From positions 1,069,921-1,133,920 of the forward strand of contig NC_008942.1 in NCBI RefSeq assembly GCF_000015765.1: a stretch of 64,000 bases of DNA, written 5' to 3'. Shown one piece after another: positions 29,693 through 59,319 of this stretch. Both the position numbers and the translations under genes were made by a program. The notes beneath the pieces are model-generated. The model worked only from the letters and a program-made list of their open reading frames with translations, was not told where the DNA came from and ran no database searches. Origin of the DNA: Methanocorpusculum labreanum Z (lineage in GTDB: Archaea > Halobacteriota > Methanomicrobia > Methanomicrobiales > Methanocorpusculaceae). Position 1 is the stretch's first letter. The number at the start of each line of letters is the position of its first letter.

Positions 29693-30007
29693 TTACTCTT
29701 CTTCCTTTTTCCCTCTTCGTGCTTTTGCCGAAGCGTTCCAGTAACCGAAGAAATAACCAATAATTATTGCTCCAATTGCAGTCTGGATACAGAAGAACAG
29801 TGATTCAATTTCTCCGCTTGGTGGTGCCCAGATCGATTCAAACCACGGGGTATAACCGGTTGCATCGATCATTTCAGCAGCACCGCTGTCTGCTCCTCCC
29901 CAGCCTTCTTCATCACCAGTACCGGATTGAACTATGGCAAGTGTGGCAACAACGAGCAGAACGATGACAAGGACACCCACAAGAATTTCAAGATGTGATT
30001 TTTTCAT
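29693..30007 (-). CDS. cbiN: Cobalt transport protein CbiN
   Basis: A 104-residue protein with two membrane helices (about residues 8-26 and 68-90) and an acidic extracytoplasmic loop containing [17 protein letters not shown] and [17 protein letters not shown]. This is the CbiN layout, which in Co2+ ECF transporters loads metal into CbiM. The ATG overlaps the cbiM stop by four bases. A C-terminal Lys/Arg-Glu tail faces the cytoplasm. It converges with cbiE. Confidence 0.9.
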
Positions 30008-30699
30008 ACTGCTTCTCCCTGGATTTTTGCGATCTCTTCATCCTGAATAATACCGAGTTTCTTTAAGATCTCCGGCTTTACGCGGACGATGTACTTTGCG
30101 ACGAGTGCACAGATGATACCCTCGATAATAGCGAGAGGAATCTGGGTTACGGCAAAGATACCTGCGAATGCGATGAATGCATTGAGAATACTTCCTTCGA
30201 CCGGAAACACTAATGCGAGCTGCAGTGAGGTGACGGTGTAGGTAACTAAATTTGCGACAGCTGCGGTGATAAACACGGCAACTCCGATGCCGACCTTGCC
30301 GGTTTTTCTAAGACCTACAAAGACGAGCCAGGCAATAAAAGGACCAGCAATGGCCATGGAAAAGACGTTTGCTCCAAGTGTCGTCAGTCCGCCGTGTGCC
30401 AGCAGCAGGGCTTGAAATAACAGAACGATCGTGCCGAGAACCGATGTGATGAACGGTCCAAAGAACGCAGCTGAAAGACCGGTTCCCGTCGGGTGAGAAC
30501 AGCTTCCCGTTACTGACGGGATTTTGAGGGCAGAAAGTACAAAGACAAATGCTCCGCACACTGCCATCAACGGGAGGACACGCCGATCCTCCTGAATCAT
30601 TTTAGTCATTTTCCAGATGCCGTAGATGACAAACGGAGCTGAAAGAACAGCCCAGAATATACACCAGCCGATGGGTAAATACCCCTCCATAATATGCAT
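30004..30699 (-). CDS. cbiM: Cobalt (or nickel) transport protein CbiM, second copy
   Basis: S-component of an ECF metal transporter, 231 residues. It begins [12 protein letters not shown], with the N-terminal Met-His metal site, and [17 protein letters not shown] near 70 carries the further His. Six to seven helices follow. With cbiN it forms a CbiMN pair, but no cbiQ or cbiO follows; the only such genes in view belong to the fused system at 20465. TATATAA at 30721-30727 lies 25 nt from the ATG, so the mRNA is probably leaderless. Co2+ is favoured over Ni2+ because of the CbiN partner and the surrounding corrin genes. Confidence 0.92.
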
Positions 30700-30810: not shown

Positions 30811-31218
30811 TCAGAGATGGGTATTCAGCGCGGCATTGGCGTTTTTCAGCATTATGTCGGCGAGAAGCGGATCTTTGCCAATAGGTTCGGCATACACGAG
30901 AGGAATTTTTGTTCCGTCTGCAAGAACAAAACTTCCACGCGACTCACCTGATTTCAAATCGAGAAGCTCGGGAATGTCCATAAGTACGTGAACGCCTTTG
31001 GCAAGGAACAGCGGAACAACAACCAGTCGATCGATATCCTCGGTTTTCATGGAATCCAGTCCTTCCAGAACTGTCGGGGAACAGTTTTCCATAAAACATG
31101 TTTTTATCAGATATTCATCCGTCTTCTTGGTCATCAATTCAGCGGTTGAAGTGATGAGCTCTTTATTATAATTGAGTCTGCTTCCATGACCTATCAGAAG
31201 TAAACCGTGTTTGCGCAT
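30811..31218 (-). CDS. cbiX: Small sirohydrochlorin cobalto-/nickelochelatase
   Basis: CbiX-small (called CfbA in the F430 pathway) inserts Co2+ or Ni2+ into sirohydrochlorin. The 135-residue protein starts MRKHGLLLIGHGSRLNYN, with the catalytic His of the LIGHGSR motif, and carries VVVPLFLAKGVHVLMDIP near residue 74 with the second His. Small CbiX works as a homodimer. ATG 31218 was preferred to GTG 31236 because a TATA element lies exactly 26 nt upstream of it. It supplies the first committed step for the cbi operon, and by known dual activity probably for F430. Confidence 0.92.
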   Translation of the reverse strand: MRKHGLLLIGHGSRLNYNKELITSTAELMTKKTDEYLIKTCFMENCSPTVLEGLDSMKTEDIDRLVVVPLFLAKGVHVLMDIPELLDLKSGESRGSFVLADGTKIPLVYAEPIGKDPLLADIMLKNANAALNTHL

Positions 31219-31240
31219 ACATATGGTATGATTCACTTAC

Positions 31241-31271: not shown

Positions 31272-31706
31272 TCATTCTGTTTTGAGAAACTGTTTTGACT
31301 CATCAATACCTCGGGAATACGGTTTGATGTCGATGACCGGTGTTTCATTCAAGGCGTCCAAACCACATACCGTTATCACATTATCTTTGATGGATTCTAT
31401 AATCACCAATGTCAGCGAAACAGGATTTGGACGGGCAGGTGAACGAGTGTTAAATACTCCGGTCAGTGGGGCTGCGGGATTACCCCGCGGGTGGACCTCT
31501 ATCACATTTCGATCTGAACGGTCGAACCAGCAGATAACAAATATCTGTCTGCCGGGGGAGAGACCATCAAGTCCTTTGGCATACTCCGGAAAGATGACGA
31601 TTTGACTGCTTTGTTCATTTTCACGCCCCTGTGATGGGGCATCCCCCTTTTCCTTAAACGGAGATAATACGAATCCTATGGGTTTACACTCAAATTGTCC
31701 GGCCAT
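31272..31706 (-). CDS. TrmO-like (TsaA/YaeB, UPF0066) SAM-binding protein, copy 1
   Basis: A 144-residue protein of the family that in E. coli N6-methylates t6A37 of tRNA-Thr. Signature blocks are PIGFVLSPFKEKGDAPSQGR near residue 9, VICWFDRSDRN near 57, FNTRSPARPNPVSLTLV near 86 and ETPVIDIKPYSRGID near 120. It lacks the C-terminal domain of the enterobacterial enzyme, as usual for archaea. It comes 44 nt after the His-rich ABC ATPase gene and looks like the last gene of that metal-uptake operon. A second paralogue precedes the permease. The context suggests a substrate other than, or besides, tRNA; this is inference. Confidence 0.8.
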   Translation of the reverse strand: MAGQFECKPIGFVLSPFKEKGDAPSQGRENEQSSQIVIFPEYAKGLDGLSPGRQIFVICWFDRSDRNVIEVHPRGNPAAPLTGVFNTRSPARPNPVSLTLVIIESIKDNVITVCGLDALNETPVIDIKPYSRGIDESKQFLKTE

Positions 31707-31750
31707 AATAATTCCTGTTTTTTGTAGAGTAAAGATGTTTGCATGATTGG

Positions 31751-32650
31751 TTATTCACATGGCACAACGATCGGCATGTGGTTGTGGTAGATCACATCTA
31801 CAGGGATGCCGTATACTGCCTCGATCATCTCTGCAGTCACCCCGGATTTATCGCACATTGCGTAAATTTTCCCATCTTTCATAAAGATAAACCGATCGGC
31901 AAACCGGAGAGCCAGATTCAGATCGTGCATAGTCATTACGGTTGCCACATCATGATGATCAACTACATTTCGAATGGCCCGTAATATTTCCATCTGTCTG
32001 CACAGATCAAGAGCGCTTGTCGGTTCATCCAGAAGAAGGACGGAGGGTTCCTGAACAATTGCCCGGCAAAGACAGACTCTCTGCAGTTCACCGCCGGAGA
32101 GCTCGTCGATGTATCTGAGCTGCATGTCGGCAAGCCCAAATTGGTCTATTGCCCTTTCCACGATGCTATAATCATTGTCCGTGACCCGCCAGCCGATATG
32201 CGGTTTTCGTCCGAGAAGGACCGAATCAAAAACCGTCATACGTGCCGAGTCATTCCTCTGGGCAACATACCCTACATTTTTTGCAATATCATTGCCGCTC
32301 ATCTTCGTCAGGTTCAGCTCGCCAAGCATGATTGTCCCGGTTTTCGGCTGGAGGATCAGGTTCATACACTTGAGAAGCGTTGATTTCCCGACACCGTTTG
32401 GACCAAGAATCGCAAGGATTTCACCGCGGGCAACACCGACACAGATCTCGTTGAGGACTCTGTCTGTTTTGTACTCAAAATTAACTCCGTCAACATTCAG
32501 CAGCGCCGGTGCCGGAGAATCGGTGTGATGATCGTGTGGAACACCGTGAAGATGTTCATGCGTATGGACATATCCTTCTGAATGAACATGAGGGTGTACA
32601 TGCATTTTTTCATCGTGGTTGTGCTCTTCGTGAGATATGTCGTCAGTCAT
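31751..32650 (-). CDS. FecE/BtuD-type ABC transporter ATPase with His-rich N-terminus
   Basis: The ATPase of a metal, siderophore or corrinoid importer. ATG 32650 was chosen over the longer frame because GGGGAGA lies just before it and it overlaps the permease stop by four bases. Residues 1-44 hold about fourteen histidines in motifs such as HVHPHVHSEGYVHTHEHLHG and HDHH. The ATPase follows: Walker A GPNGVGKSTLL near 80, signature ELSGGELQRVCLCRA near 180, Walker B SVLLLDEPTSALD near 202. A His-rich tail on the ATPase suggests binding or buffering of Ni, Co or Zn, and argues for a metal-related cargo over ferric siderophore or vitamin B12. Confidence 0.88.
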   Translation of the reverse strand: MTDDISHEEHNHDEKMHVHPHVHSEGYVHTHEHLHGVPHDHHTDSPAPALLNVDGVNFEYKTDRVLNEICVGVARGEILAILGPNGVGKSTLLKCMNLILQPKTGTIMLGELNLTKMSGNDIAKNVGYVAQRNDSARMTVFDSVLLGRKPHIGWRVTDNDYSIVERAIDQFGLADMQLRYIDELSGGELQRVCLCRAIVQEPSVLLLDEPTSALDLCRQMEILRAIRNVVDHHDVATVMTMHDLNLALRFADRFIFMKDGKIYAMCDKSGVTAEMIEAVYGIPVDVIYHNHMPIVVPCE

Positions 32651-33714
32651 GTTCGTCTCCCCCTGATAATGAGATACAGGAACACGGGCGCCCCGAGGAA
32701 TGCAGTCAAAACTGCTACGGGCAAAACATGCGGAGCGATCAAGGTTCTTGCGATAGTATCGGAAACAAGTAAAAGCACTGCTCCGCAGACAAAACTTGCC
32801 GGAATCAAAAATCGGTGATCGTCGCCGATGACACGCCGCATCATATGCGGACAAACGAGACCGACAAAGCCGATGATCCCAAGAAATGCCACGATTACAG
32901 CGCTGATCAAGGATGCAGCGATCATACCAAGGAGGCGTGTCCTCTCAACATTGACACCCAGACCTTTTGCAGTTTCTTCTCCGGCATCTATCGAGTTATA
33001 ATCCCAGCGTTTATAGATGAAATAGATAAAGCAAATGACGGTCATCAGCGTAATCAGTCCTAACTCTGTCCAGCTTGCTCTTGCAACATCTCCAAACTGC
33101 CAGAAAACGATTGAGGCAAGACGGGTGTCATCAACGAAGTACTGAATTGCCATTAATCCGGCGCTAAAGAGCGAACTTATGGCAACACCTGCCAGAATCA
33201 TCGTTTCGGGCGTTGCAGAGCGAATCTTTGCAATGAACAGAATAATTACTGTTGTCAGAATAGAGAAGACGAACGCCGAGATTGTAGTCAGATACGGGTT
33301 GTTAATTACAACTGCATCGGCGATGCTGCTTCCAGTCGTTCCTGCTCCAAAAAGCAGAATACCGACAGCAGCTCCAAAGGCAGCGGCACTGGATAAACCA
33401 AGGGTAAACGGAGAGGCAAGCGGATTACGCAAAACGGACTGCATGGAAACGCCGGCAATTGCTAGTCCAGCGCCGGCCACAATAGCCGTCAAAGCCTGAG
33501 GAATCCTGATATTCCAGATAATTCTTTCATAAAGACTTGTGCCGCCGCCGCCAAAAATCGTTGTGATAATATCGGGAATTGGAATAGATACAGCACCTAC
33601 CGAAACCGATACGAGAAACATAACGACAGTTGCAATGATTCCGATTACAATTATCGTTACTTTTCTGCCGACGTAGGCTTTGTAGTCCGTTGGTTTTTTC
33701 TCTTCTTTTGTCAT
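32647..33714 (-). CDS. FecCD/BtuC-type ABC transporter permease
   Basis: A permease of about ten helices, 355 residues, FecCD family. The N-terminus is cytoplasmic (EEKKPTDYKAYVGRK). Family blocks are IPQALTAIVAGAGLAIAGVS near residue 71, NPLASPFTLGLSSAAAFGAA near 97, and the ATPase-coupling region GIIGFVGLVCPHMMRRVIGD near 279 with CPHMMR. It serves the three binding proteins encoded upstream. Its ATG lies 3 nt after the stop of a TrmO-like gene. Confidence 0.93.
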   Translation of the reverse strand: MTKEEKKPTDYKAYVGRKVTIIVIGIIATVVMFLVSVSVGAVSIPIPDIITTIFGGGGTSLYERIIWNIRIPQALTAIVAGAGLAIAGVSMQSVLRNPLASPFTLGLSSAAAFGAAVGILLFGAGTTGSSIADAVVINNPYLTTISAFVFSILTTVIILFIAKIRSATPETMILAGVAISSLFSAGLMAIQYFVDDTRLASIVFWQFGDVARASWTELGLITLMTVICFIYFIYKRWDYNSIDAGEETAKGLGVNVERTRLLGMIAASLISAVIVAFLGIIGFVGLVCPHMMRRVIGDDHRFLIPASFVCGAVLLLVSDTIARTLIAPHVLPVAVLTAFLGAPVFLYLIIRGRRT

Positions 33715-33717
33715 TTT

Positions 33718-34143
33718 TTATCCATTTCGCGGCGTATCGATTCCTTCTGAATAAGGTTTGATGTCAACAACTGGTGTCTGATCCAATGCTTCCAGTCCCT
33801 GAACTGTCAGAATACTGCCCTCAATATTCACTAATTTCACCAGTGTTAATGCAATCGGATTCGGACGATTCGGTGAGCGGTTCGAGAATATGCCGCGGGG
33901 CGGTTTTTGTTCCTCTCCGGGTCTTCGCGACTTCAAAACCGTTCGATCGGACCGGTCGAACCAGCAAAAGACAAACAGATCGTCACCGATGCAAAGTCCT
34001 TCTGCTGCCTCCTGATATGCAGGTTCAAGTGTGATGATACTCAGTTCATCGGTATGTCTTCCCTGTTTGGGAGCGTCTTCGCGTGTTTTAAACGGGGATG
34101 AGACGAAACCGATAGGAACACAATTCATACATAATTCAGCCAT
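33718..34143 (-). CDS. TrmO-like (TsaA/YaeB) SAM-binding protein, copy 2
   Basis: A 141-residue paralogue of the gene at 31272. The blocks are NCVPIGFVSSPFKTREDAPK near residue 6, VFCWFDRSDRTVLKSRRPGE near 57, FSNRSPNRPNPIALTLVKL near 86 and QTPVVDIKPYSEGID near 121. ATG 34143 starts MAELCMNCVPIG; the longer frame from 34260 overlaps the preceding binding-protein gene. It lies within the operon, between binding protein 1 and the permease, so its expression is tied to metal uptake. Two copies in one operon suggest specialisation on different substrates. Confidence 0.8.
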   Translation of the reverse strand: MAELCMNCVPIGFVSSPFKTREDAPKQGRHTDELSIITLEPAYQEAAEGLCIGDDLFVFCWFDRSDRTVLKSRRPGEEQKPPRGIFSNRSPNRPNPIALTLVKLVNIEGSILTVQGLEALDQTPVVDIKPYSEGIDTPRNG

Positions 34144-34159
34144 AATATATCTCCAAAAA

Positions 34160-35281
34160 TCAAATGGTGGAAAGATCCACTTTCTGATAGGCGAGTGAGC
34201 CGGTGTTCTTATACAACTGATTAAAGACAGGATCTCCAACAAGGAAGGTATAGATTTCATCTGCTTTCAATTTAGCATCGATATCTTTGAACTGTTCCGG
34301 ATAAAGGACGGTTCCAACAAAGTAGGCATTTGCAAAGCTGGTTCCGTAATTCGTCCAACTTCTTGTGTCCGGAGGAATTGCATAGATATTTCCTGTCTTG
34401 ACTGCTGCAAGTTCCTGATACGAGGGATCATTTTTCAGTTCAAGCAGTGCACCGCCGCCGGCGGCACCCGATGTATCAAGGTCGATGAAGAGAATCTCGG
34501 GATTCCATTCAAGAATTTTTTCTTTGGCGATTGTGGCCGCATCATTACTTGCAATACCAGCTGCTTTCTGGTTTGCAGAGAGAAGCGTGAATCCGATAAA
34601 CTCGGGTTTAGTAGACTGCAGACCATGCGGACCACGGTTGCCGACTCCGCCTATATAGACAACTGGTTTTTCATCCTGAGGAATATCCGGGGTTCGTGCA
34701 ATAAGATCTGCTTTGATTCCAGCAAAATATTCTATAACTTCATTTGCACGATCCTCTTTTCCAAGGACCTTGCCCATCATAAGAATACTTTGAGAGAATT
34801 TGTCAAACTGGGTTACAGGATCATATGGGTAGAAGCAGACGATCGGGATTCCTGCTTTTTCATATGCTTCGTTGGCAGCGGCTGCGTCTTCCGTTGTTAA
34901 AAAGATAACATCAGGATTGATTGTTAAGGCAAGTTCTGCATCAAAGCTGTCTGCTGTTCCGATTAATGCAAGATCGACAATTTCAGGATGCGCCAGCATA
35001 TACGGACGACCTTCGGTATCGACATCTACCGTCTTATCATTTGAACTGACCCCCACCAGCATATCGACGGCATCAAGATATGTGATGAATCTCGTGGATG
35101 CAGATCCATATGTCCCGACCGTTGTGATATTATCTGGGAGAATCACTTCTCTTCCGGCTGAATCGGTTATCATAATGGTTCCCGATTCCGTTCCATTTGC
35201 AACACAACCTGCGCACATGCATAATGCAAGCACACAGAGACCTGCGAAAAATAAGGGGATAATTTTTTGTTCATGAATCAC
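34160..35281 (-). CDS. Substrate-binding lipoprotein, BtuF/FepB-type, copy 1
   Basis: A receptor of the FecB/BtuF fold, 373 residues, with signal peptide LFFAGLCVLALCMCAGC and lipobox. The mature part starts GTIMITDSAGREVILPDNIT and shows the paired domains linked by a long helix. The start is a GTG overlapping the stop of copy 2 (GTGA). An ATG homologous to the copy 2 start lies 10 nt further but is out of frame, because its following A-run has six bases where copy 2 has seven. So either the start has shifted by slippage, or the sequence has an error here. Confidence 0.88.
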   Translation of the reverse strand: MIHEQKIIPLFFAGLCVLALCMCAGCVANGTESGTIMITDSAGREVILPDNITTVGTYGSASTRFITYLDAVDMLVGVSSNDKTVDVDTEGRPYMLAHPEIVDLALIGTADSFDAELALTINPDVIFLTTEDAAAANEAYEKAGIPIVCFYPYDPVTQFDKFSQSILMMGKVLGKEDRANEVIEYFAGIKADLIARTPDIPQDEKPVVYIGGVGNRGPHGLQSTKPEFIGFTLLSANQKAAGIASNDAATIAKEKILEWNPEILFIDLDTSGAAGGGALLELKNDPSYQELAAVKTGNIYAIPPDTRSWTNYGTSFANAYFVGTVLYPEQFKDIDAKLKADEIYTFLVGDPVFNQLYKNTGSLAYQKVDLSTI

Positions 35282-36414
35282 AACCCGATTTTCTGATAAG
35301 AGAGCCCATTCATGTGCTCTTTCAATTCTTCATACACATCTCCGCCAACAACTTTGTTGTAGATCTCATCAGCTTTTTTGGCGAGATCAACATCTGCAAA
35401 TTGTTTCGGATAGAGCACTGTTCCTATATAGTATGCGTTGACCAGTTGCGTTTCATAGTTTGCCCCTGCTGAGATGTCGGGGTTTACTGTGTAGACCTCT
35501 CCAGTCTTCACTGCAGTCAACGTCTTGTATGAGACGTCGTTTTTGAGTTCATAGATTGCTCCCCCTCCTGCAGCATTGAGCGTACCCAGTCCGACGAAGA
35601 TGATTTCCGGATCCCAGGCAAGAATCTGTTCTTTTGAAACCTGTGCATATTCGGTCTGACCGACATTGGATAGGTTAGATGCAACATTGTTTGCATGAAG
35701 AACGGTGAACGGATAATAGGTGGGATTTGTACCATCAAGTCCATGTTCTCCCCTGTACGATATGCCGCCAACATAGGCACGTTCATCAGATGTTGGAACA
35801 TTTGCGACACGGGAGGTAAGGTCATTTTCAACTGATGTGAAGTAGGTAAGCAGGTCCTGATATCTGGTTTCTTTATGCATGATTTCAGCAAGCATTTCCA
35901 GGGAGTCGCAGACTTTTTCTTTCTGCGTCACATAGTCTCCAGTATAGAAGAGAACAACCGGAATGCCTGTTTTATCTTGAATCTCATTAGCTGATTCTAT
36001 ACTCGCTTCACTTGATGCAGCAATAAACAGGATCTCGGCACCGGATGTCAGAAGTTTTTCCCCGTCGACAACGCCTCGTGATGCACCAACCGCTGAAATG
36101 TTGAGGATTTCAGGATTTGCAAGCATATACGGGCGCGGGTCTTCTGGATAAATGTTAAGAGCACTGTCAGAATAATCAACCGCAACTACACGATCTAAAT
36201 CAACATCGAGATAGACAAAATATCTCATGGACCCTGAACCGCTGACGGCAATTTTATCCGGGTTGTCGGGAATGGTTACCACGCGACCAAAGGAGTCGGT
36301 GATGTTAATTGTCCCATCTCCTGCATCAGGGGTACCGCCAACACAACCTGCGCACATGCATAATGCAAGCACACAAAGACCTGCAAAAAATAAGGAGATA
36401 ATTTTTTTGTTCAT
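35278..36414 (-). CDS. Substrate-binding lipoprotein, BtuF/FepB-type, copy 2
   Basis: A 378-residue paralogue. Its signal MNKKIISLFFAGLCVLALCM with lipobox CAGC is almost identical, even at DNA level, to that of copy 1. The mature part, beginning TINITDSFGRVVTIPDNPDK, is closer to copy 3 (SGSGSMRYFVYL, GGISYRGEHGLDGTNPTYYP). The conserved WDPEIIFVGLGTLNAAGGGA near residue 280 is shared by all three with changes. The ligand is unknown; the shared HGLDGT and GGGA elements suggest related ligands for copies 2 and 3. Confidence 0.9.
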   Translation of the reverse strand: MNKKIISLFFAGLCVLALCMCAGCVGGTPDAGDGTINITDSFGRVVTIPDNPDKIAVSGSGSMRYFVYLDVDLDRVVAVDYSDSALNIYPEDPRPYMLANPEILNISAVGASRGVVDGEKLLTSGAEILFIAASSEASIESANEIQDKTGIPVVLFYTGDYVTQKEKVCDSLEMLAEIMHKETRYQDLLTYFTSVENDLTSRVANVPTSDERAYVGGISYRGEHGLDGTNPTYYPFTVLHANNVASNLSNVGQTEYAQVSKEQILAWDPEIIFVGLGTLNAAGGGAIYELKNDVSYKTLTAVKTGEVYTVNPDISAGANYETQLVNAYYIGTVLYPKQFADVDLAKKADEIYNKVVGGDVYEELKEHMNGLSYQKIGL

Positions 36415-36416
36415 AG

Positions 36417-37547
36417 TTACACTACGAGTTTCGTATAGGAGAGATTGTTCAGGTTTGCTTTCAGTTGTTCGTAGACTGGAGCTCCGTCAATAAACGTGTA
36501 AATCTCATTTGCTTTTTCTGCCGGGTTAATATCGGCAAACTGTTCTGGATAAAGAATCGTGCCGATGTAGTAGGCATTTGCCATACTTGTTTCATGGTTC
36601 GTACCCATTGAGGTGTGGGGATTGACCGCATACACTTCACCGGTCTTTACCGCTGTCAGTTCCTGATAGGATGGATCGGTCTGCAATTCTATAATTGCTC
36701 CGCCTCCGGCAGCATTCATAGTACCTAGGTCAACAAAGATGATATCAGGATCCCATCCAAGAATCTGTTCCTTTGAGATCGCCGCATATCCGGTACTCGT
36801 TGTTGCATTTATTACCGAGGCAACATTCATTGCATGAAGGACAGTGAACGGATAATATGTTGGATCAGTTCCATCGAGACCATGTGCCCCGCTATAGGAA
36901 ATCCCGCCAACATAGACGGATGGTTTTTCTGCATCGGGAATGCCCGCAGTTCGGGTTTCCAAATCGGCACGCACATCAGCAAAGTATTGTATGACATCAT
37001 CCGCACGTTTATCCACGTGGAGAATATTACCAATCATTTTCAGGGATGAGGCTACTTTGTCTCCGTTGGTGACATAATCTCCCGCGTAGAAAAGAACCAC
37101 AGGGATCCCGGTTTTTTCCTGAATCTCGTTTGCCGACTGGATTGCGGTATCACTGTATCCCGCCATGAACAAAATATCGGGATTGATTGACAGAAGTTTC
37201 TCTGCATCAACGACACCTTTTGCGGTTCCAAGAGCCGGGAGGTCTTTGATTTCTGGATGGGCGAGCATGTAGGGACGAACATCATTAGGGAAGTTAAGAA
37301 GATTGCTGTCCTGATAATCAATAGCAACGAGCCTGTCGGTCACGTTGAGATAGGCAAAATAACGTGTCGAGCCCGAGCCGCTGACGGCGATTCTTTCAGG
37401 ATTGTCGGGAACAACGACCACTCGACCACCCGAGTCGGTTATGGTGATGGTACCACCACCGGTTTCTTCAGAGGTGCTTACGCAGCCTGCAGACATACAA
37501 ACGAGAGTCAGAGCAAGCAGTAAAAGTACAGTAACAATTTTCCTCAT
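36417..37547 (-). CDS. Substrate-binding lipoprotein, BtuF/FepB-type, copy 3
   Basis: First gene of the operon, 376 residues. Signal peptide MRKIVTVLLLLALTLVCMSA with lipobox SAGC differs from those of the other two copies. The mature domain begins TITITDSGGRVVVVPDNPER and contains VYVGGISYSGAHGLDGTDP near residue 206 and WDPDIIFVDLGTMNAAGGGA near 280. A TATA-like TAATATG near 37581 gives a short leader. It diverges from the fmdE-family gene at 37670 across about 120 nt, so a shared regulator is plausible. Confidence 0.9.
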   Translation of the reverse strand: MRKIVTVLLLLALTLVCMSAGCVSTSEETGGGTITITDSGGRVVVVPDNPERIAVSGSGSTRYFAYLNVTDRLVAIDYQDSNLLNFPNDVRPYMLAHPEIKDLPALGTAKGVVDAEKLLSINPDILFMAGYSDTAIQSANEIQEKTGIPVVLFYAGDYVTNGDKVASSLKMIGNILHVDKRADDVIQYFADVRADLETRTAGIPDAEKPSVYVGGISYSGAHGLDGTDPTYYPFTVLHAMNVASVINATTSTGYAAISKEQILGWDPDIIFVDLGTMNAAGGGAIIELQTDPSYQELTAVKTGEVYAVNPHTSMGTNHETSMANAYYIGTILYPEQFADINPAEKANEIYTFIDGAPVYEQLKANLNNLSYTKLVV

Positions 37548-37640
37548 AGTATTAACATTCTAGAGTTTTGTCACAATAGGTAATATGTATTTCTATTTTC
37601 CCCATAATTAAAACATGCAATGTATATTTTCGTATGATTA

Positions 37641-37646
37641 TTATAT
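37641..37646 (+). promoter_or_regulatory. TATA box of the first fmdE-family gene (leaderless)
   Basis: TTATAT is centred 26-27 nt upstream of the ATG at 37670, and no ribosome site lies between them. The region 37548-37669 is shared with the divergent binding-protein operon. Confidence 0.5.
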
Positions 37647-37669
37647 CGGATAAGGCATATAATATTAAT

Positions 37670-38251
37670 ATGAAAGATTTTAACGAAGCAGTTGCTTTCC
37701 ACGGTCACACCTGCGGCGGACTTGCCATGGGATACAAAGCCTGCGAACTTGCCATTGAAAAGCTTGGACTCTCCTTCTCCGAGGATGAAGAAGTTGTCTG
37801 TATCACAGAAACGGATTCGTGCACGGTTGATGCAATTCAGGTGGTGCTTGGCTGCACTGCCGGCAAAGGAAATTTGTTCATCAATAATTGGGGAAAAAAT
37901 GCCTTCTCGTTTTACCGGCGCGACAATGACACGTCAATTCGTCTGGTCGCCAATCCTGAATTTATGAATGTAAATCCAGAGATGGCAGAACTTCGTCCGA
38001 AGGTATTCTCCGGAGCGGCAACCCAGGAAGAAATTGATCGGTTCCATACCCTTTCCCATATGTGGATTGATGAAATTCTCAACATGCCGGCAGAGAAGAT
38101 GTATCTCGTTAAGGAAGCAACCGAACCCCTCCCAGGTCATGCACGGATCTATAATAATGTGACCTGTTCTGTCTGCGGTGAGCAGGTTGCCGAGGGATTG
38201 GCGCCGGTTATTGATGGAAAGCATGTCTGCATTCCCTGTTTAAGAAAGTAA
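37670..38251 (+). CDS. FmdE-family protein with C-terminal zinc ribbon
   Basis: A 193-residue protein named after a gene next to molybdenum formylmethanofuran dehydrogenase, although FmdE is not a proven subunit. The N-terminal domain has FNEAVAFHGHTCGGLAMGYK (conserved Cys/His), TETDSCTVDAIQVVLGCTAG near residue 60 and GNLFINNWGKNAFSF. The C-terminus has two CxxC pairs (CSVCGE and CIPCLRK). ATG 37670 is preferred to 37634 on TATA spacing. It diverges from an ABC metal-uptake operon, and a shorter relative opens the Znu-type operon downstream. A role in metal handling is inferred from this repeated association. Confidence 0.85.
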   Translation: MKDFNEAVAFHGHTCGGLAMGYKACELAIEKLGLSFSEDEEVVCITETDSCTVDAIQVVLGCTAGKGNLFINNWGKNAFSFYRRDNDTSIRLVANPEFMNVNPEMAELRPKVFSGAATQEEIDRFHTLSHMWIDEILNMPAEKMYLVKEATEPLPGHARIYNNVTCSVCGEQVAEGLAPVIDGKHVCIPCLRK

Positions 38252-38737: not shown

Positions 38738-39730
38738 ATGAAAAAAACGATTGGAATTATTCTTACCTTGTTTTTGATCTGCAGCATGCTGATTTCAGGC
38801 GCATCTGCTCTGAATGTTGTAACAACTATGCCGAATATCTGGGATGTTACTCAGGAAATCGGCGGTGACAAAGTCACCGTGATTTACGTCGCTCCCCCAA
38901 CCGCGGTACATATCTCGAGTGACACCATCGATGCAGTTCTGCAGAAGAACAGCGATTTCATTAATACTGCCGATCTTTTCATCGGTCAGGGCGGCGGGAT
39001 GGATGGAACACCGATCACTAAAGTCACAGAATTCAGAAAGACCAACTTCGGAAAAGATACGGATTGGAAGCTGATGAACGAAGTTCCAACTTCAGCATTA
39101 CCCAACGCGACGAACGTGTATGATAACCCGACAAGTCTTATCGGCTATGCACAGACGATAGCTTATATTCTGGAAACTGCGGATCCAGCAAATGCCGGCA
39201 CGTATGCTGCAAATCTTGAAACATATCTGAAAAAAATCTCGACGGTAACTACTCTTACGCCTGCTGAAAAGGAAGCGCTCTCGGATGTTCCGATCATATG
39301 TCAATTCCGTATCAAAAATCAGGCTGAAACCTGGCTTGGTATGCATGTTATTACCTCATACCCCAGCCCGGAAACGGTTCAGGCCATCGTTGACGACATC
39401 CACGCAGATCCAGCCAAGTATTCAAAGATTGCTGAAGATGCAAAATGCGGAAAAATATTCGTGGTCGAAAACATTGTCGCAGGTCAGGATATTGGAAAAC
39501 CGATCCACGAAGCATTGACCGATGAAAAAATACCATGCGAACGTGTGGTTTTCCTGAACCTCCCGAAATCGGCTGATGGAATCAACTCGATTCTCGACTA
39601 CTACACATACAACAAAGATCTCATTTTAGACAGCATAAACGACGAGACGCAAACCCAGTCACCGCTGGCTGTCGTTCCGATCATCGGGGCTCTTGCCTGT
39701 GCGGTACTTTTCCTTACCAGAAGGAACTAA
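38738..39730 (+). CDS. Metal-binding protein of a ZnuA-like ABC transporter, C-terminally anchored
   Basis: A cluster-9 (ZnuA/TroA-like) solute receptor, 330 residues. A cleavable-type signal (residues 1-25, ending SGASA) is followed by LNVVTTMPNIWDVTQEIGGD. The His usual in this family appears in PPTAVHISSDTI near 59, and further candidate ligands occur at GMHVITSYPSPE near 206. There is no lipobox; instead SPLAVVPIIGALACAVLFLT and RRN close the protein as a membrane anchor, typical of many archaeal surface proteins. It starts the operon receptor - FmdE-like - ATPase - permease. The metal (Zn, Mn or another) is unknown. Confidence 0.8.
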   Translation: MKKTIGIILTLFLICSMLISGASALNVVTTMPNIWDVTQEIGGDKVTVIYVAPPTAVHISSDTIDAVLQKNSDFINTADLFIGQGGGMDGTPITKVTEFRKTNFGKDTDWKLMNEVPTSALPNATNVYDNPTSLIGYAQTIAYILETADPANAGTYAANLETYLKKISTVTTLTPAEKEALSDVPIICQFRIKNQAETWLGMHVITSYPSPETVQAIVDDIHADPAKYSKIAEDAKCGKIFVVENIVAGQDIGKPIHEALTDEKIPCERVVFLNLPKSADGINSILDYYTYNKDLILDSINDETQTQSPLAVVPIIGALACAVLFLTRRN

Positions 39731-39812
39731 CTCTTCTCTTTTTTACCACCCCAAGTAGTACCAATTTATAATAACGACATATTTTATTAACTTTAAAATT
39801 ATATTGGTATGT

Positions 39813-40265
39813 ATGAAGTGGCATGAAAACTGCAGATATATGGAACTCCCGCGGGAATATACAAGCGAGGAACTGGCAAAATTTCACGGACATCTTGGTC
39901 CCTTTATCGTTCTTGGATATCGGATGGGCAAATATGCACTACAATATTTTGACAATGACCCGTTCTCCATTTTTGCCACGGTCTATTGTTCCGGGACAAC
40001 GCCGGAATCCTGTTTAATGGATGGGGTTCAGATAGGCAGCGGGTGCACGCTTGGAAAACGAAACATCGAACTCGTTCCGTCTCAAACGGCAGAAGTCATG
40101 TTCCGGCATGCGGACGGGCGTGCTATTCTGATAAAACCAGGCGACTACATGAAATACAAATCAGATTATGATTCTCTTGACCCGGAGCTTGCTCTTGAAC
40201 ATTTTGCCGAGGCCATGTATTCAATGGAAGATACGGATCTGTTTGTCGTCACGGAATTACGATGA
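39813..40265 (+). CDS. Short FmdE-family protein in a Znu-type operon
   Basis: A 150-residue protein with the FmdE core: EELAKFHGHLGPFIVLGYRM near residue 20, CSGTTPESCLMDGVQIGSGC near 58 and TLGKRNIELV. The zinc ribbon of the longer copy is absent, and the first Cys of HGHTCGG is Leu-Gly here. ATG 39813 was taken; a TTG at 39804 adds three residues. Its stop overlaps the ATPase start by 4 nt, so it is firmly part of the metal-transport operon. Not a structural part of formylmethanofuran dehydrogenase, judging by context. Confidence 0.82.
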   Translation: MKWHENCRYMELPREYTSEELAKFHGHLGPFIVLGYRMGKYALQYFDNDPFSIFATVYCSGTTPESCLMDGVQIGSGCTLGKRNIELVPSQTAEVMFRHADGRAILIKPGDYMKYKSDYDSLDPELALEHFAEAMYSMEDTDLFVVTELR

Positions 40266-40993
40266 GTGAAGCAATCGTCAGACTGACGAATGTAACCACT
40301 ACATACGAGGGAGCAGCCCATCCGGTGATTCACGACATCAATCTCGCCGTAAATCCAGGGGAGTTCGTCATCGTCGGGGGACCAAACGGCGCAGGAAAAA
40401 CTACGCTTCTTGAAACGATTGCCGGGCTCTTACCGGTGGTGAATGGATCCGTAGAGATCTGCGGCGAAGATATTCTGAAGAAAAAGAACAAACTCCGGAA
40501 AAAACTCGGATATGTCATTCAGAACTTCGACTTCGATGCCTACACACCGTTTACCGTTGAAGAGGTCCTGATCATGGCAAGATTCGGTCTGCTCGGTCTT
40601 TTTAAACGTCCGGGCGAGGAGGATCATGCTGCGGTGGATACTGCTCTTTCGACGCTTGGGATTGCCGATCTCAGAAAAAGCCACATAGGTAAACTCTCCG
40701 GTGGGCAGCAGCAGAAAGTCCTCATTGCCCATAATCTCGCAAAGAAGCCGGAGATTCTTCTTCTCGATGAACCATTCAGTAATCTGGATCTTGCGACCCG
40801 TGAACATGTCTGCGATGTTCTCTGCAGAATCGCAGATCTTGGAGTCACGATCATCATTGTATCCCATGCATTCGATGCACTGCCGAAAAGAGATGTCCGC
40901 GTGGTCGTGATGAAGTCCGGAGAAATCGTTCTGAACAAAATAACTCCTCCGGAATGTGTTCAGCAGATCGTCAGACTCACCTCCGAATCATAG
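40262..40993 (+). CDS. ZnuC-type metal ABC transporter ATPase
   Basis: An ATPase of 243 residues. Walker A GGPNGAGKTTLL near residue 40, Q-loop VIQNFDFDAYTPFTVEEV near 83, signature LSGGQQQKVLIAHNLA near 140 and Walker B EILLLDEPFSNLDLAT near 160. The DAYTPFTVEEVLIMAR section is typical of Zn/Mn-type ATPases. It overlaps the FmdE-like gene upstream (ATGA) and the permease starts 10 nt downstream. Confidence 0.9.
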   Translation: MSEAIVRLTNVTTTYEGAAHPVIHDINLAVNPGEFVIVGGPNGAGKTTLLETIAGLLPVVNGSVEICGEDILKKKNKLRKKLGYVIQNFDFDAYTPFTVEEVLIMARFGLLGLFKRPGEEDHAAVDTALSTLGIADLRKSHIGKLSGGQQQKVLIAHNLAKKPEILLLDEPFSNLDLATREHVCDVLCRIADLGVTIIIVSHAFDALPKRDVRVVVMKSGEIVLNKITPPECVQQIVRLTSES

Positions 40994-41002
40994 ATATTAC
41001 CC

Positions 41003-41851
41003 ATGCTTGAGTTTCTTATTCCAAACAATATGGTCTGTCACGCAACAGAAGCCATGCTTTTTGCTTCGGTCGGGTGCGGGATACTGGCGGTCCTGATTAC
41101 TCAGATGAAGATCTCATCTATCGGATTTACAATGGCGCACGGGGCATTTGCCGGAGCAGCGGTCGGAATGTTTTTCGGACTGAACATCACGCTCGCCGCA
41201 GTTGTCGGCAGCATTCTGATAGCATTTCTGCTCGGGCCGCTTTCCGACAAAGCGCGTATGCCGGTCGACACTATTCTTGGCGTACTGTTCGGCGCAATGA
41301 TGGCAGTAGCCATTTTTTTCTATGCATGGATGGTCCAGCTCGGCATGGGATACGACGCTTCGGCACTTATGTTCGGCAGTGTCCTTTCACTCTACAGGGA
41401 AGAGATCTATGGACTTGCTCTGATCATGCTCCTCGTTATCGGTTTTGTAATTGTATTTTACAAGGAGATCTCTTCCATGATTTTCCATATGAAAATTGCA
41501 GAGATATCCGGAATAAAAACACGTCCGATGATGTATGTCCTGCTTTTTATGATCGCACTGATGGTAGCTCTGACCATGCCCATAGTTGGGGGACTGTTAT
41601 TATACGTCTGGCTCGTGACGCCTGCTGCTATAGCATATCAGTTCTGCGGGACGCTCAAACAGATGATGATCGCATCGCCGATTATTGCAGGCAGTATAAG
41701 TCTTCTCGGAACATGGCTCGCCTTTACATTTAATCTGCCCATAGCGCCGCTTTCTGCAGTACTGTTCGCATTTGGCTTTTTAGTGGCGGTCATCATCTCG
41801 CCGAAACGAAAAATATCACGCGAAAAATATGGTGCGGTAAAAAAAGAATAA
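41003..41851 (+). CDS. ZnuB-type (ABC-3) metal transporter permease
   Basis: A permease of 282 residues with about eight helices, ABC-3 family. Characteristic pieces are FTMAHGAFAGAAVGMFFGLN near residue 43, MPVDTILGVLFGAMMAVAIF near 88, and ISGIKTRPMMYVLLFMIALM near 168, followed by VVGGLLLYVW. It completes the receptor/FmdE-like/ATPase/permease operon. Metal specificity cannot be deduced. Confidence 0.9.
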   Translation: MLEFLIPNNMVCHATEAMLFASVGCGILAVLITQMKISSIGFTMAHGAFAGAAVGMFFGLNITLAAVVGSILIAFLLGPLSDKARMPVDTILGVLFGAMMAVAIFFYAWMVQLGMGYDASALMFGSVLSLYREEIYGLALIMLLVIGFVIVFYKEISSMIFHMKIAEISGIKTRPMMYVLLFMIALMVALTMPIVGGLLLYVWLVTPAAIAYQFCGTLKQMMIASPIIAGSISLLGTWLAFTFNLPIAPLSAVLFAFGFLVAVIISPKRKISREKYGAVKKE

Positions 41852-41963
41852 TCACTGTTATCACCAGCTGTGTCTCCCTGGAAAACAGAACTCATAAAAA
41901 TATTTAGTAGTAAAGCAATACTATTTGTATCAAAAACGTTATCGGTCAAATTTGGAGACAGAA

Positions 41964-42797
41964 ATGGCAAAAACACTCATGATACAGGGGACAACGTCCA
42001 ACGTCGGAAAAACCACCCTGACCGCCGGTCTTTGCCGGATCCTGGCTCAGGACGGGCACCGTGTCGCTCCGTTCAAACCGCAGAATCTCGCTTCAGCTGC
42101 CTATGTCACCAAATCCGGTGACCGGATCGGTATCGGACAGGCTGTCCAGGCCGAGGCGGCAGGGATCGAACCGGATGGGCGAATGAATCCCGTGCTCGTT
42201 AAACCGTGCGGCGTAGGAACTGAGGTATGCATCAGAGGAAAACCGGTCCCGGGAATCAAAAAGTATGGCGAGATGGTCCAGTTGATGCCCGAAGTCCTTT
42301 CAGCATTCCGTAGTCTCGAGGAAGAGTATGACGTTATCATCATCGAGGGTGCGGGAGCGGCGGCAGAACTCAACCTCATGGATCGTGACATCTCCAACAT
42401 GGGTTTTGCAAAAGAGATCGGCGCTCCGGTCATCGTCGTAGGCGATATCGAACGCGGCGGAGTATTTGCTTCACTGTACGGGACCTTCGGGCTCTTCGAC
42501 GATGCAGCCAAAAAGCTGGTTCGCGGTTTTGTCATAAACCGGCTCTGCGGCGACCCGAATCACCTGGGAACCGGACCTGAACGCCTCACCGATCTGACCG
42601 GGATACCGGTTCTCGGCGTCGTCCCGAAACTTGACATCCATCTTCAGGAGGAAGACATCCCCGGACCGATCCCACGCGACAACAGCCTGCTCGAAGACAA
42701 AGCCTACCGCGAACATCAGCTTGATCTGCTAGCCGACGCTTTACGGGAAGCACTCGACATGGATGCGGTGTACCAAATCCTGGAGGAACAATCATGA
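41964..42797 (+). CDS. CobQ-like amidoligase lacking the glutaminase domain
   Basis: The 277 residues match the N-terminal synthetase half of cobyric acid synthase (CobQ/CbiP, about 490 residues): P-loop IQGTTSNVGKTTLTAGLCRI at residue 6, VAPFKPQNLAS near 35, MNPVLVKPCGVGTEVCIRGK near 74, IIIEGAGAAAELNL near 125 and VIVVGDIERGGVFASLYGT near 154. The protein then stops, with no class I glutaminase domain (no Cys-His-Glu site). The frame is intact and the next gene overlaps by four bases, so this looks like a genuine short protein rather than a broken gene. ATG 41964 has GGAGA upstream. It may use ammonia or a separate glutaminase. Confidence 0.8.
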   Translation: MAKTLMIQGTTSNVGKTTLTAGLCRILAQDGHRVAPFKPQNLASAAYVTKSGDRIGIGQAVQAEAAGIEPDGRMNPVLVKPCGVGTEVCIRGKPVPGIKKYGEMVQLMPEVLSAFRSLEEEYDVIIIEGAGAAAELNLMDRDISNMGFAKEIGAPVIVVGDIERGGVFASLYGTFGLFDDAAKKLVRGFVINRLCGDPNHLGTGPERLTDLTGIPVLGVVPKLDIHLQEEDIPGPIPRDNSLLEDKAYREHQLDLLADALREALDMDAVYQILEEQS

Positions 42798-57435: not shown

Positions 57436-57439
<4 letters not shown>

Positions 57440-59319
57440 ATTAATCTCTTCTGGAAACGTTTTCGAATCACGATCGCAACGAGGTATATCGCCATAACAA
57501 GGGATATAAGAACGACGGCGGTCCCATACTGCTGGGTTTGTGACCCGGGCACACTTGTTGCGAGGACATACAGATGGAAGGGAAGCGCCATCACCGGATC
57601 AAAGAGATCCATACTGATGAACCGTTTGGAAAACACCACTGCAGTGAACATGATCGGGGCTGTTTCGCCGGCTGCTCTTCCGATCGAAAGGATCGTTCCG
57701 GTAAGAATTCCGGGGGCCGCCGAGGGTAAGACCACATTTTTCAGGGTCTGCCATTTGGTCGCACCAAGTCCAAGCGATGCCTCCCGCAGAGAGTTTGGAA
57801 CCGATTTGAGGGCTTCTTCTGTTGTTTTTATGATCGTTGGGAGGATCATCAAAGCAAGACAGACCATACCTGCAAGAAGACAGACACCCCATCCGAGGAA
57901 TATAACAAGGAAGGCAAACCCGAACACGCCGAAAACGATTGACGGCGTGCCGGCAAGCAGATCGTTCCCTGTCCTAAGAAGGCGGGTCAGGATGTTATCT
58001 CTGGAGTATTCATGCAGATAGATCGCAGATCCGATTCCAATTGGGAGGGCTATAAGAATAGCGCCGCCGACCAGCTGGAGCGTTCCGATGATCGCAGGGA
58101 AAATCCCTCCTTCCAGTCCCATATTGCTCGGCGAAGTCGTCAGAAATTCCCACGAAATTGCCGGGATCCCGTTTATGAAAATGTTTCCAAGAATAAGGAC
58201 CAGGATTCCGATAACGATGAACGTTCCCGCATAAATTAGGCCAAACGCTGTTCGCTCGATCGATTTGTGGGATAAAACTCCCCGAACGAAGAACAGTCCT
58301 CCGGCTATCGCCATCAGAACGATCGTCGGCAGGATCCCGATTGCATACATCAGGAAGCTGATGAGAAGTATCGCCCCGCAAAGCTTAAGGAATGTTTTGA
58401 TTTTGGCAGGTACGCTGAAGACGGGTCTGCCGCTCTGGATCTTTTTTGTGATCCTGCCTGAGAGGAGGTTGATCAGAAGAGTGATCAACAGGAGCACAGC
58501 TGCAACGCCGAAGAGAGCGTAATAATGCATTGAGCCCGTCGCGACTTCGCCAAGCTCTATACCAAGCGTCGCCGTCAGCGTTCTGACCGGGGAGAGGACA
58601 TCCCAAATTGGTGACGGAATCACTGCCGCATTTCCGGCGACCATCATCACGGCCATTGTTTCGCCGATCGCACGGCCGATTCCAAGAATCACCGCAGCCG
58701 AGATGCCCGATGCGGCGGCAGGTATCAGCACACGCGAAATGGTCTGCCATTTCGTGGCTCCAAGACCAAGCGACGCCTCTTTGTAATCCTTTGGAACCAC
58801 ATAGAGAGCATCTTCGGAGACGGATACGATCGTCGGCAGTGCCATGATTCCTAGAAGGATCGAGGCGGCAAGCCAGGAAAAACCGCTTGGAATATTCAAA
58901 GTACTCTGCAGGAAACTGCAGAGAACGACCATGCCGAAAAATCCGTAGACTACCGACGGGATTCCTGCAAGAAGTTCTATTGCCGGCTTGACGATATCAC
59001 GGACCTTTTGCGGGGCAAGATAGGCAAGAAAAACGGCACTGATGATACCAAGAGGTACGGCAAAAATCATCGCTCCGAATGTTACCAGAAGCGTGTCGAT
59101 AATAAGAGTGGCAATTCCATATGACGGAGTACTGCCTGTCGGATTCCAGACTGTATTAAAGAAAAATCCGGAGATACCAGTTTCAAAAAAAATCGGGAGA
59201 GAAGTCAGGACAAGGTATCCGAGAATGAACACCACTGCCGAGGCGGCGATCAGTGCGGCTGCCAGCCACACCGATTTGATACCTGTCTCTTTCCATCCCG
59301 CTGTAATCCTTACGTTCAT
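57436..59319 (-). CDS. pstCA: Phosphate ABC transporter permease, PstC-PstA fusion
   Basis: A single 627-residue protein contains both permease subunits. Residues 1-285 are PstC-like, with the coupling loop [20 protein letters not shown] near 178 and [17 protein letters not shown] near 214. Residues about 340-627 are PstA-like, with [20 protein letters not shown] near 512 and [16 protein letters not shown] near 548. A linker with extra hydrophobic segments joins them at about 286-340. The continuous frame over both EAA loops rules out a simple annotation merge. It overlaps pstS and pstB by four bases each. Confidence 0.93.

Follow-up and report, generated by a model that had tools for sequence, protein, structure and literature searches.

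Here we analysed a window of 64,000 nucleotides from the archaeon Methanocorpusculum labreanum Z, whose genome is a single contig of 1,804,962 bases. In this window a preliminary description had marked out a metal-uptake gene cluster with FmdE-type and TrmO-like proteins as a candidate undescribed system. On balance, we favour reading the locus as a trace-metal uptake-and-delivery operon in which two TrmO-fold proteins serve as S-adenosylmethionine (AdoMet)-dependent accessories of the importer, and not as the enzyme that forms N6-methyl-N6-threonylcarbamoyladenosine (m6t6A) in threonine transfer RNA (tRNA-Thr). This reading draws on the gene content, the conserved gene order, the conserved AdoMet-contact and FmdE metal-site residues, and the recurrent, independent linkage of TrmO-fold genes to molybdenum/tungsten (Mo/W) and FecCD-type importers.

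Domain searches recovered every gene named in the preliminary description, in the order it gave (Table 1). The minus-strand run reads, 5′ to 3′, three Peripla_BP_2 lipoprotein receptors, TrmO-a, the FecCD permease, the ATP-binding cassette (ABC) ATPase, TrmO-b, CfbA, CbiM and CbiN, the last three extending it past position 31272. Up to CfbA the genes are separated by 0–45 bp, CbiM follows after about 110 bp, and TrmO-a sits 16 bp from receptor 3 and 3 bp from the permease. The order TrmO-CfbA-CbiM is preserved in four sister genomes (L089, L090, L091 and L097) and the full order receptor-TrmO-FecCD-ATPase-TrmO-CfbA-CbiM in the first three of these, all within the genus, L097 being without TrmO-a. 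The ATPase carries 15 His in about 44 residues ahead of its nucleotide-binding domain, and each of the six operons in the genus has 10–15 His upstream of that domain, a feature not seen in other families. A Peripla_BP_2 receptor, a FecCD permease and an ABC ATPase encoded together are a feature of type II importers, and the locus shares these three families with MolBC-A and other FecCD/Peripla_BP_2 systems; unlike MolBC-A-type importers, it has three receptors, a His-rich ATPase N terminus and a TrmO-fold gene between receptor and permease.

That TrmO-a and TrmO-b are TrmO-fold AdoMet proteins holds, as judged from sequence and from a predicted model. Both score above the curated cut-offs of PF01980 (100 and 103 bits; cut-off 26.8) and TIGR00104 (144 and 130 bits; cut-off 93), and the AlphaFold model of TrmO-a (pLDDT 92) matches the AdoMet complex of AF0241, the single-domain UPF0066 protein of Archaeoglobus (PDB 2nv4; AdoMet bound in the crystal; about 42% identity), with TMt 0.95 and a root-mean-square deviation of 1.3 Å. 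The AdoMet contacts that have been tested by mutation in Escherichia coli, Q25, R92, D125 and K136 (Q22, R82, D111 and K122 in AF0241; PMC4132733), are all kept in TrmO-b, and TrmO-a has Q, R, E and K, with Asp replaced by Glu at the third. The window proteins thus share with TrmO/YaeB, the tRNA-Thr m6t6A methyltransferase, the β-barrel AdoMet fold, both profiles and the AdoMet-contact residues, but differ from it in occurring as multiple paralogs, in being sited in metal-importer operons and in lacking the C-terminal DPRxxY domain, which is needed for tRNA-Thr methylation in E. coli (PMC4132733). None of the five TrmO paralogs in the genome has that domain, nor does any of the 121 archaeal proteins surveyed; among 81 proteins from named genomes the motif occurred in two, both of the long bacterial form. 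Judged as functional TrmO enzymes, TrmO-a and TrmO-b therefore fail on one tested feature. Kimura et al. had already noted the missing C-terminal domain, the many paralogs and the lack of m6t6A in archaeal tRNA (PMC4132733). In the tree, TrmO-a and TrmO-b fall in separate clades. Elsewhere, a TrmO_N domain is preceded by an N-terminal stretch resembling RNase H (L087:7983-8834, at 427-428 kb of the M. labreanum genome; L050:1887-2756; L053:7500-8423), and in two sister-family genomes an Mrp/NBP35-like NTPase adjoins such a gene.

The neighbourhoods of TrmO-fold genes were then surveyed across the phylum: in 60 genomes drawn evenly from it every TrmO_N gene was located, and nearly all were analysed with their flanks. 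The profiles used for labelling were built from window genes and from neighbours encountered in the survey, and were grouped as a trace-metal set (FecCD, FmdE, DUF364, ZnuA, NifX-like, CbiM and CbiX/CfbA) and a Mo/W set (ModA, ModB, WtpC, MOT1, MoeA, FdhA and FdhD); the control comprised 40 regions taken at random from these genomes, with 344 genes. A gene of either set lay within 3 kb of 39 of 89 TrmO_N genes and of 6 of 344 random genes (Fisher p 2e-24, uncorrected for shared ancestry), and when only the metal set was used, whose profiles came from the window and a TrmO locus of the same genome, the counts were 22/89 vs 3/344. Within 1 kb of TrmO, partner genes numbered 307 per Mb; at 5–7 kb the density had fallen to about 60, and 652 kb of random sequence held 2. 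The preliminary description had proposed such a survey as the check on its idea, with random neighbourhoods as the outcome that would overturn it; the neighbourhoods proved far from random. In the reverse direction, TrmO was found within 3 kb of 9/43 WtpC genes, where 0.2 would be expected.

The strongest single pattern was ModA-TrmO-ModB(-WtpC), seen in 17 operons with gaps mostly below 30 bp or overlaps; receptor-TrmO-FecCD was seen five times. Against NCBIfam models, the Mod genes of L093, L021 and L092 reached 89 bits for ModA (cut-off 62) and 236 for Mo_ABC_porter (cut-off 210), and WtpC 423–439 bits (cut-off 440). The slot between receptor and permease is common to ModABC/WtpC molybdate/tungstate importers and to the FecCD system of the window, which is an unrelated transporter type; the former carry an oxyanion, and none is encoded in the window. 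Further TrmO loci held FmdE-TrmO pairs and fusions beside formate dehydrogenase, FdhD and MoeA (L070, L071, L073, L074, L076 and L193), a DUF364-TrmO pair beside a NifX-like gene (L086), and, in another Methanomicrobiales family, the row receptor-FecCD-ATPase-CobN-FmdE-TrmO (L059). DUF364 has been linked to metal transport, with a proposed role in metal chelation (PMC2954201). At L086:6843-10617 (about 317.5-321.3 kb of the M. labreanum genome), radical SAM, TrmO, DUF364 and NifX-like (PF02579) genes and two ParA/Mrp-like genes stand in a row, which is partly preserved in L095, L102 and L211.

Beyond the phylum, in a sample of 80 loci from named genomes, FecCD, FmdE, MOT1 or Mod partners were found at TrmO loci of Desulfallas, Dethiobacter, Syntrophomonas and a Peptococcaceae bacterium, and NifX/Mrp partners at those of Sulfurospirillum and others. 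Within the class of Desulfallas, the unchanged archaeal profiles labelled the same partners at 15 of 40 TrmO loci, a count with no random-region comparison beside it; four of these loci read TrmO-Mrp-receptor-FecCD-ATPase and two TrmO-DUF364-FmdE with receptor-FecCD. FmdE-TrmO fusions are present in archaea and in Bacillota, and Pfam scans around three bacterial fusion loci (L186, L208 and L218) found mostly unrelated neighbours. At a Dethiobacter locus (L192; genome G089, C30:246067-288571) four TrmO genes with open frames of 263–300 aa lie within 43 kb; two of them were read, and these end in FmdE-like tails and stand on either side of a MOT1 molybdate transporter next to FecCD genes. A tree of 196 TrmO domains was built from few columns and has many open forks; on it, the ModABC link requires 11 changes and the FecCD link 10, of which well-supported branches force at least 4 and at least 6, respectively; the linkages therefore arose, or moved, several times. 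An incidental operon position and a single ancestry of the linkage were considered and rejected on the random-region controls and the tree.

Divergent from the operon, the window encodes an FmdE-family protein in which the metal ligands of the family, FHGHTC and a downstream Cys (DSCTVDAIQ), are intact, which fits the earlier suggestion that this protein may hold the metal. The gene itself stood, and its start moved from 37634 to, most likely, 37670, from where the reading frame is conserved in sister species. With the family (PF02663; 2glz, 2gvi and 3d00) the protein shares the FHGHxC-plus-Cys metal site, the zinc finger and adjacency to metal transporters (PMC2954224), and it differs in lying outside a formylmethanofuran dehydrogenase operon and in being paired with TrmO-fold genes. 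It is flanked on both sides by metal importers and is not co-transcribed with formylmethanofuran dehydrogenase subunits; only 13 of 208 family members are (PMC2954224). FmdE-TrmO fusion proteins (PMC2954224, PMC11237513) join in one protein the same two families that are separate genes of one locus here. The element TTTCGTATGATT (37628-37646), upstream of the corrected start, is preserved in sister species of the genus, where it likewise lies between the divergent genes, and is a possible operator or promoter. As a shared promoter motif it was rejected: it has one site in the window and occurs at three loci only, including the window's own, which gives no regulon. A second FmdE gene lies inside a second, unrelated importer (38738-41851), and this arrangement is conserved in L089 and L090.

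Table 1. Genes of the operon and of the adjoining importer, with positions in the window
Gene product	Position	Strand	Assignment
Metal receptor 1, Peripla_BP_2 lipoprotein, TM0189/YiuA/MolA-like	36417..37547	-	PF01497 E 9.8e-21
Metal receptor 2	35278..36414	-	PF01497 E 1.9e-15; 60% identity to receptor 1 (alignment)
Metal receptor 3	34160..35281	-	PF01497 E 2.5e-20; 50% identity to receptor 1 (alignment)
TrmO-a, single-domain TrmO-fold AdoMet-binding protein, 141 aa	33718..34143	-	PF01980 E 1.6e-29
FecCD-type (type II) ABC permease	32647..33714	-	PF01032 E 1.8e-91
ABC ATPase, His-rich N terminus (MTDDISHEEHNHDEKMHVHPHVHSEG...)	about 31751..32650	-	PF00005 E 1.1e-30
TrmO-b, second single-domain TrmO-fold AdoMet-binding protein, 144 aa	31272..31706	-	PF01980 E 1.3e-28
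CfbA/CbiX-small, sirohydrochlorin nickelochelatase (F430 pathway)	30811..31236	-	NF033198 F430_CfbA 149 bits, cut-off 120
CbiM, cobalt/nickel energy-coupling factor (ECF) transporter S component	30004..30699	-	TIGR00123 285 bits, cut-off 184
CbiN	29693..30007	-	NF002780 106 bits, cut-off 84
FmdE-family protein, FHGHTC motif and C-terminal C4 zinc finger, divergent	37670..38251	+	PF02663 143 bits, E 8.7e-42; zf-dskA_traR
ZnuA-like metal receptor of adjoining importer	38738..39730	+	PF01297 E 2.2e-15
Second FmdE-family protein	39804..40265	+	PF02663 E 2.8e-23; FHGHLG, first Cys lost, no zinc finger
ABC ATPase of ZnuA-type importer	40262..40993	+	AztA/MntA-like, scores below cut-offs
ABC-3-family permease of ZnuA-type importer	41003..41851	+	Sequence and position; own profile seeded on the gene

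The cargo of the operon is inferred to be, most likely, nickel and/or cobalt. These metals are favoured because CfbA and CbiMN stand in the same gene run, CobN stands in the related row of L059, the ATPase is His-rich, and Zn/Ni was found in the FmdE crystal structure 2glz (PMC2954224). Three tandem receptors are indeed present, as the preliminary description had it, but its BtuF-type label did not stand. Among proteins of solved structure, the nearest relatives are TM0189, YiuA, which binds iron chelates, and MolA, which binds molybdate; for receptor 1 the closest structure is 2etv (E 1e-66 by sequence, TMt 0.85 by fold), and MolA is a relative (E 1.7e-34, profile) but not the nearest. An attempt to name the ligand from the receptor was given up, as these nearest relatives bind different ligands. 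Vitamin B12 uptake of the BtuF type was likewise rejected: the BtuC models gave 210 bits (cut-off 461) and 205 (334) and BtuD 130 (281), all below the equivalog cut-offs, and receptor and permease fall outside the subfamily. A credible though doubtful alternative has the FecCD importer carrying molybdate/tungstate, as MolBC-A does, or a corrinoid. It would accord with MolA being among the nearest solved receptors, with the frequent placement of FmdE and TrmO-FmdE fusions beside FdhA, FdhD, MoeA and MOT1, and with the cobalamin genes that flank the operon; it sits poorly with the His-rich ATPase, the missed BtuC and BtuD cut-offs, CobN in L059 and CfbA and CbiMN in the same run.

In the proposed scheme, the receptors and the FecCD/His-rich-ATPase importer would carry the metal into the cell, where FmdE may bind it in the cytoplasm as a carrier or sensor; the downstream CfbA and CbiMN would put it into tetrapyrroles (F430 and corrinoids) and provide further, ECF-type import. 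The two TrmO-fold proteins are probably methyltransferases whose substrate would be a protein or small molecule involved in metal handling. TrmO-fold genes occur alongside importers of free oxyanions and FecCD importers alike, which makes it unlikely that their role depends on a single chelator. From the gene arrangements, a step shared by metal entry in general, or by the first handling of the metal in the cytoplasm, seems more likely and would fit the fusions to FmdE; it may consist of methylation of such a substrate or of AdoMet-sensing control of the importer.

The second of these options, taken as a strictly non-catalytic AdoMet-sensing subunit that rides on the permease or ATPase and gates uptake by cellular AdoMet, is unlikely in our view. 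Co-translation within the transporter, directly ahead of the permease in two unrelated transporter types, would suit it, as would the AdoMet held in the AF0241 crystal and the consumption of AdoMet by F430 and corrinoid synthesis; yet the chemistry of methyl transfer is conserved in the family, and the fusions to FmdE show that the proteins can do without a membrane partner. We regard as rather improbable the proposal that the proteins are methyltransferases of tRNA or another RNA tied to metal supply, such that translation of metalloproteins follows metal status. The TIGR00104 scores, the match of fold and AdoMet pocket to TrmO and the fusion of one paralog to an RNase H-like domain (L087) can be cited for it. 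They are met by the complete lack, in the 121 surveyed proteins, of the domain that E. coli TrmO requires to methylate tRNA, by the lack of known m6t6A in archaeal tRNA (PMC4132733), by five paralogs in one 1.8-Mb genome, and by FmdE fusions and a placement inside Mod and Fec operons that are unsuited to an RNA substrate. Methylation of a small metal chelator imported by the receptors, or of its precursor, was the suggestion of the preliminary description, and it fared poorly: although the receptors nearest by fold (YiuA and CeuE) bind ferric chelates and another paralog adjoins DUF364, the same TrmO slot recurs in operons for ModABC/WtpC importers, which carry a free oxyanion, the operon holds no chelator-synthesis gene, and nicotianamine synthase (NAS; PF03059), the best-known archaeal chelator synthase family, is absent from the genome and present in 4 of 60 genomes of the phylum. 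We consider this role quite improbable.

Several points count against the importer-accessory reading itself. Of the receptors that have been characterised, those nearest to the window's take ferric chelates or molybdate and not Ni/Co, and the conserved AdoMet residues would suit an RNA methyltransferase as well. Half of the TrmO genes lie elsewhere, and TrmO in WtpC operons is frequent and not obligatory, since no more than the nine operons counted above hold it. Some Mo/W families were picked after the neighbourhoods had been seen (compare the own-genome-seeded count of 22/89).

Two further observations concern other parts of the window. At 57436-59319 the PstC and PstA phosphate permeases are fused in one 627-aa protein. 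At 41925-42797 a 290-aa cobyric acid synthase-like protein matches only the N-terminal half of its 480-aa model, and the gene that follows encodes a Diphthami_syn_2 protein, not the missing half. Scans of the whole window for tRNA genes and against Rfam gave no matches.

The locus had been put forward as a candidate undescribed system, and for its FmdE half this claims too much: FmdE genes were reported in 2010 to adjoin mostly metal transporters and to exist fused to UPF0066 (PMC2954224), and a 2024 paper again listed archaeal fusions of FmdE to a tRNA methyltransferase, which it interpreted as possibly regulating formylmethanofuran dehydrogenase (PMC11237513). For TrmO-fold genes inside Mod/Wtp or FecCD operons we found no report in the openly available literature searched, and the link between TrmO and importers appears to be new.

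Under the curated TIGR00104 equivalog, such proteins are labelled as tRNA methyltransferases throughout archaea and in many anaerobic bacteria, and what archaeal TrmO-like proteins modify has been a standing question since 2014 (PMC4132733). Their being built repeatedly into importer operons of unrelated microbes suggests that they act in metal handling rather than on transfer RNA, and the repeated, independently evolved site inside Mo/W and Ni/Co importers points to metal homeostasis. More tentatively, and with less confidence than we place in the operon itself, the TrmO fold may be a general module of trace-metal acquisition in anaerobes (Ni/Co, Mo and W), made with the importer or fused to FmdE and contributing an undescribed methylation or AdoMet-gated step, in which case most archaeal 'TrmO' proteins would be misannotated. 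The central enzymes of methanogens depend on Ni/Co and Mo/W, and concrete, tractable tests are possible in these organisms. Such a role would join three orphan families, FmdE, DUF364 and single-domain TrmO, in one process.

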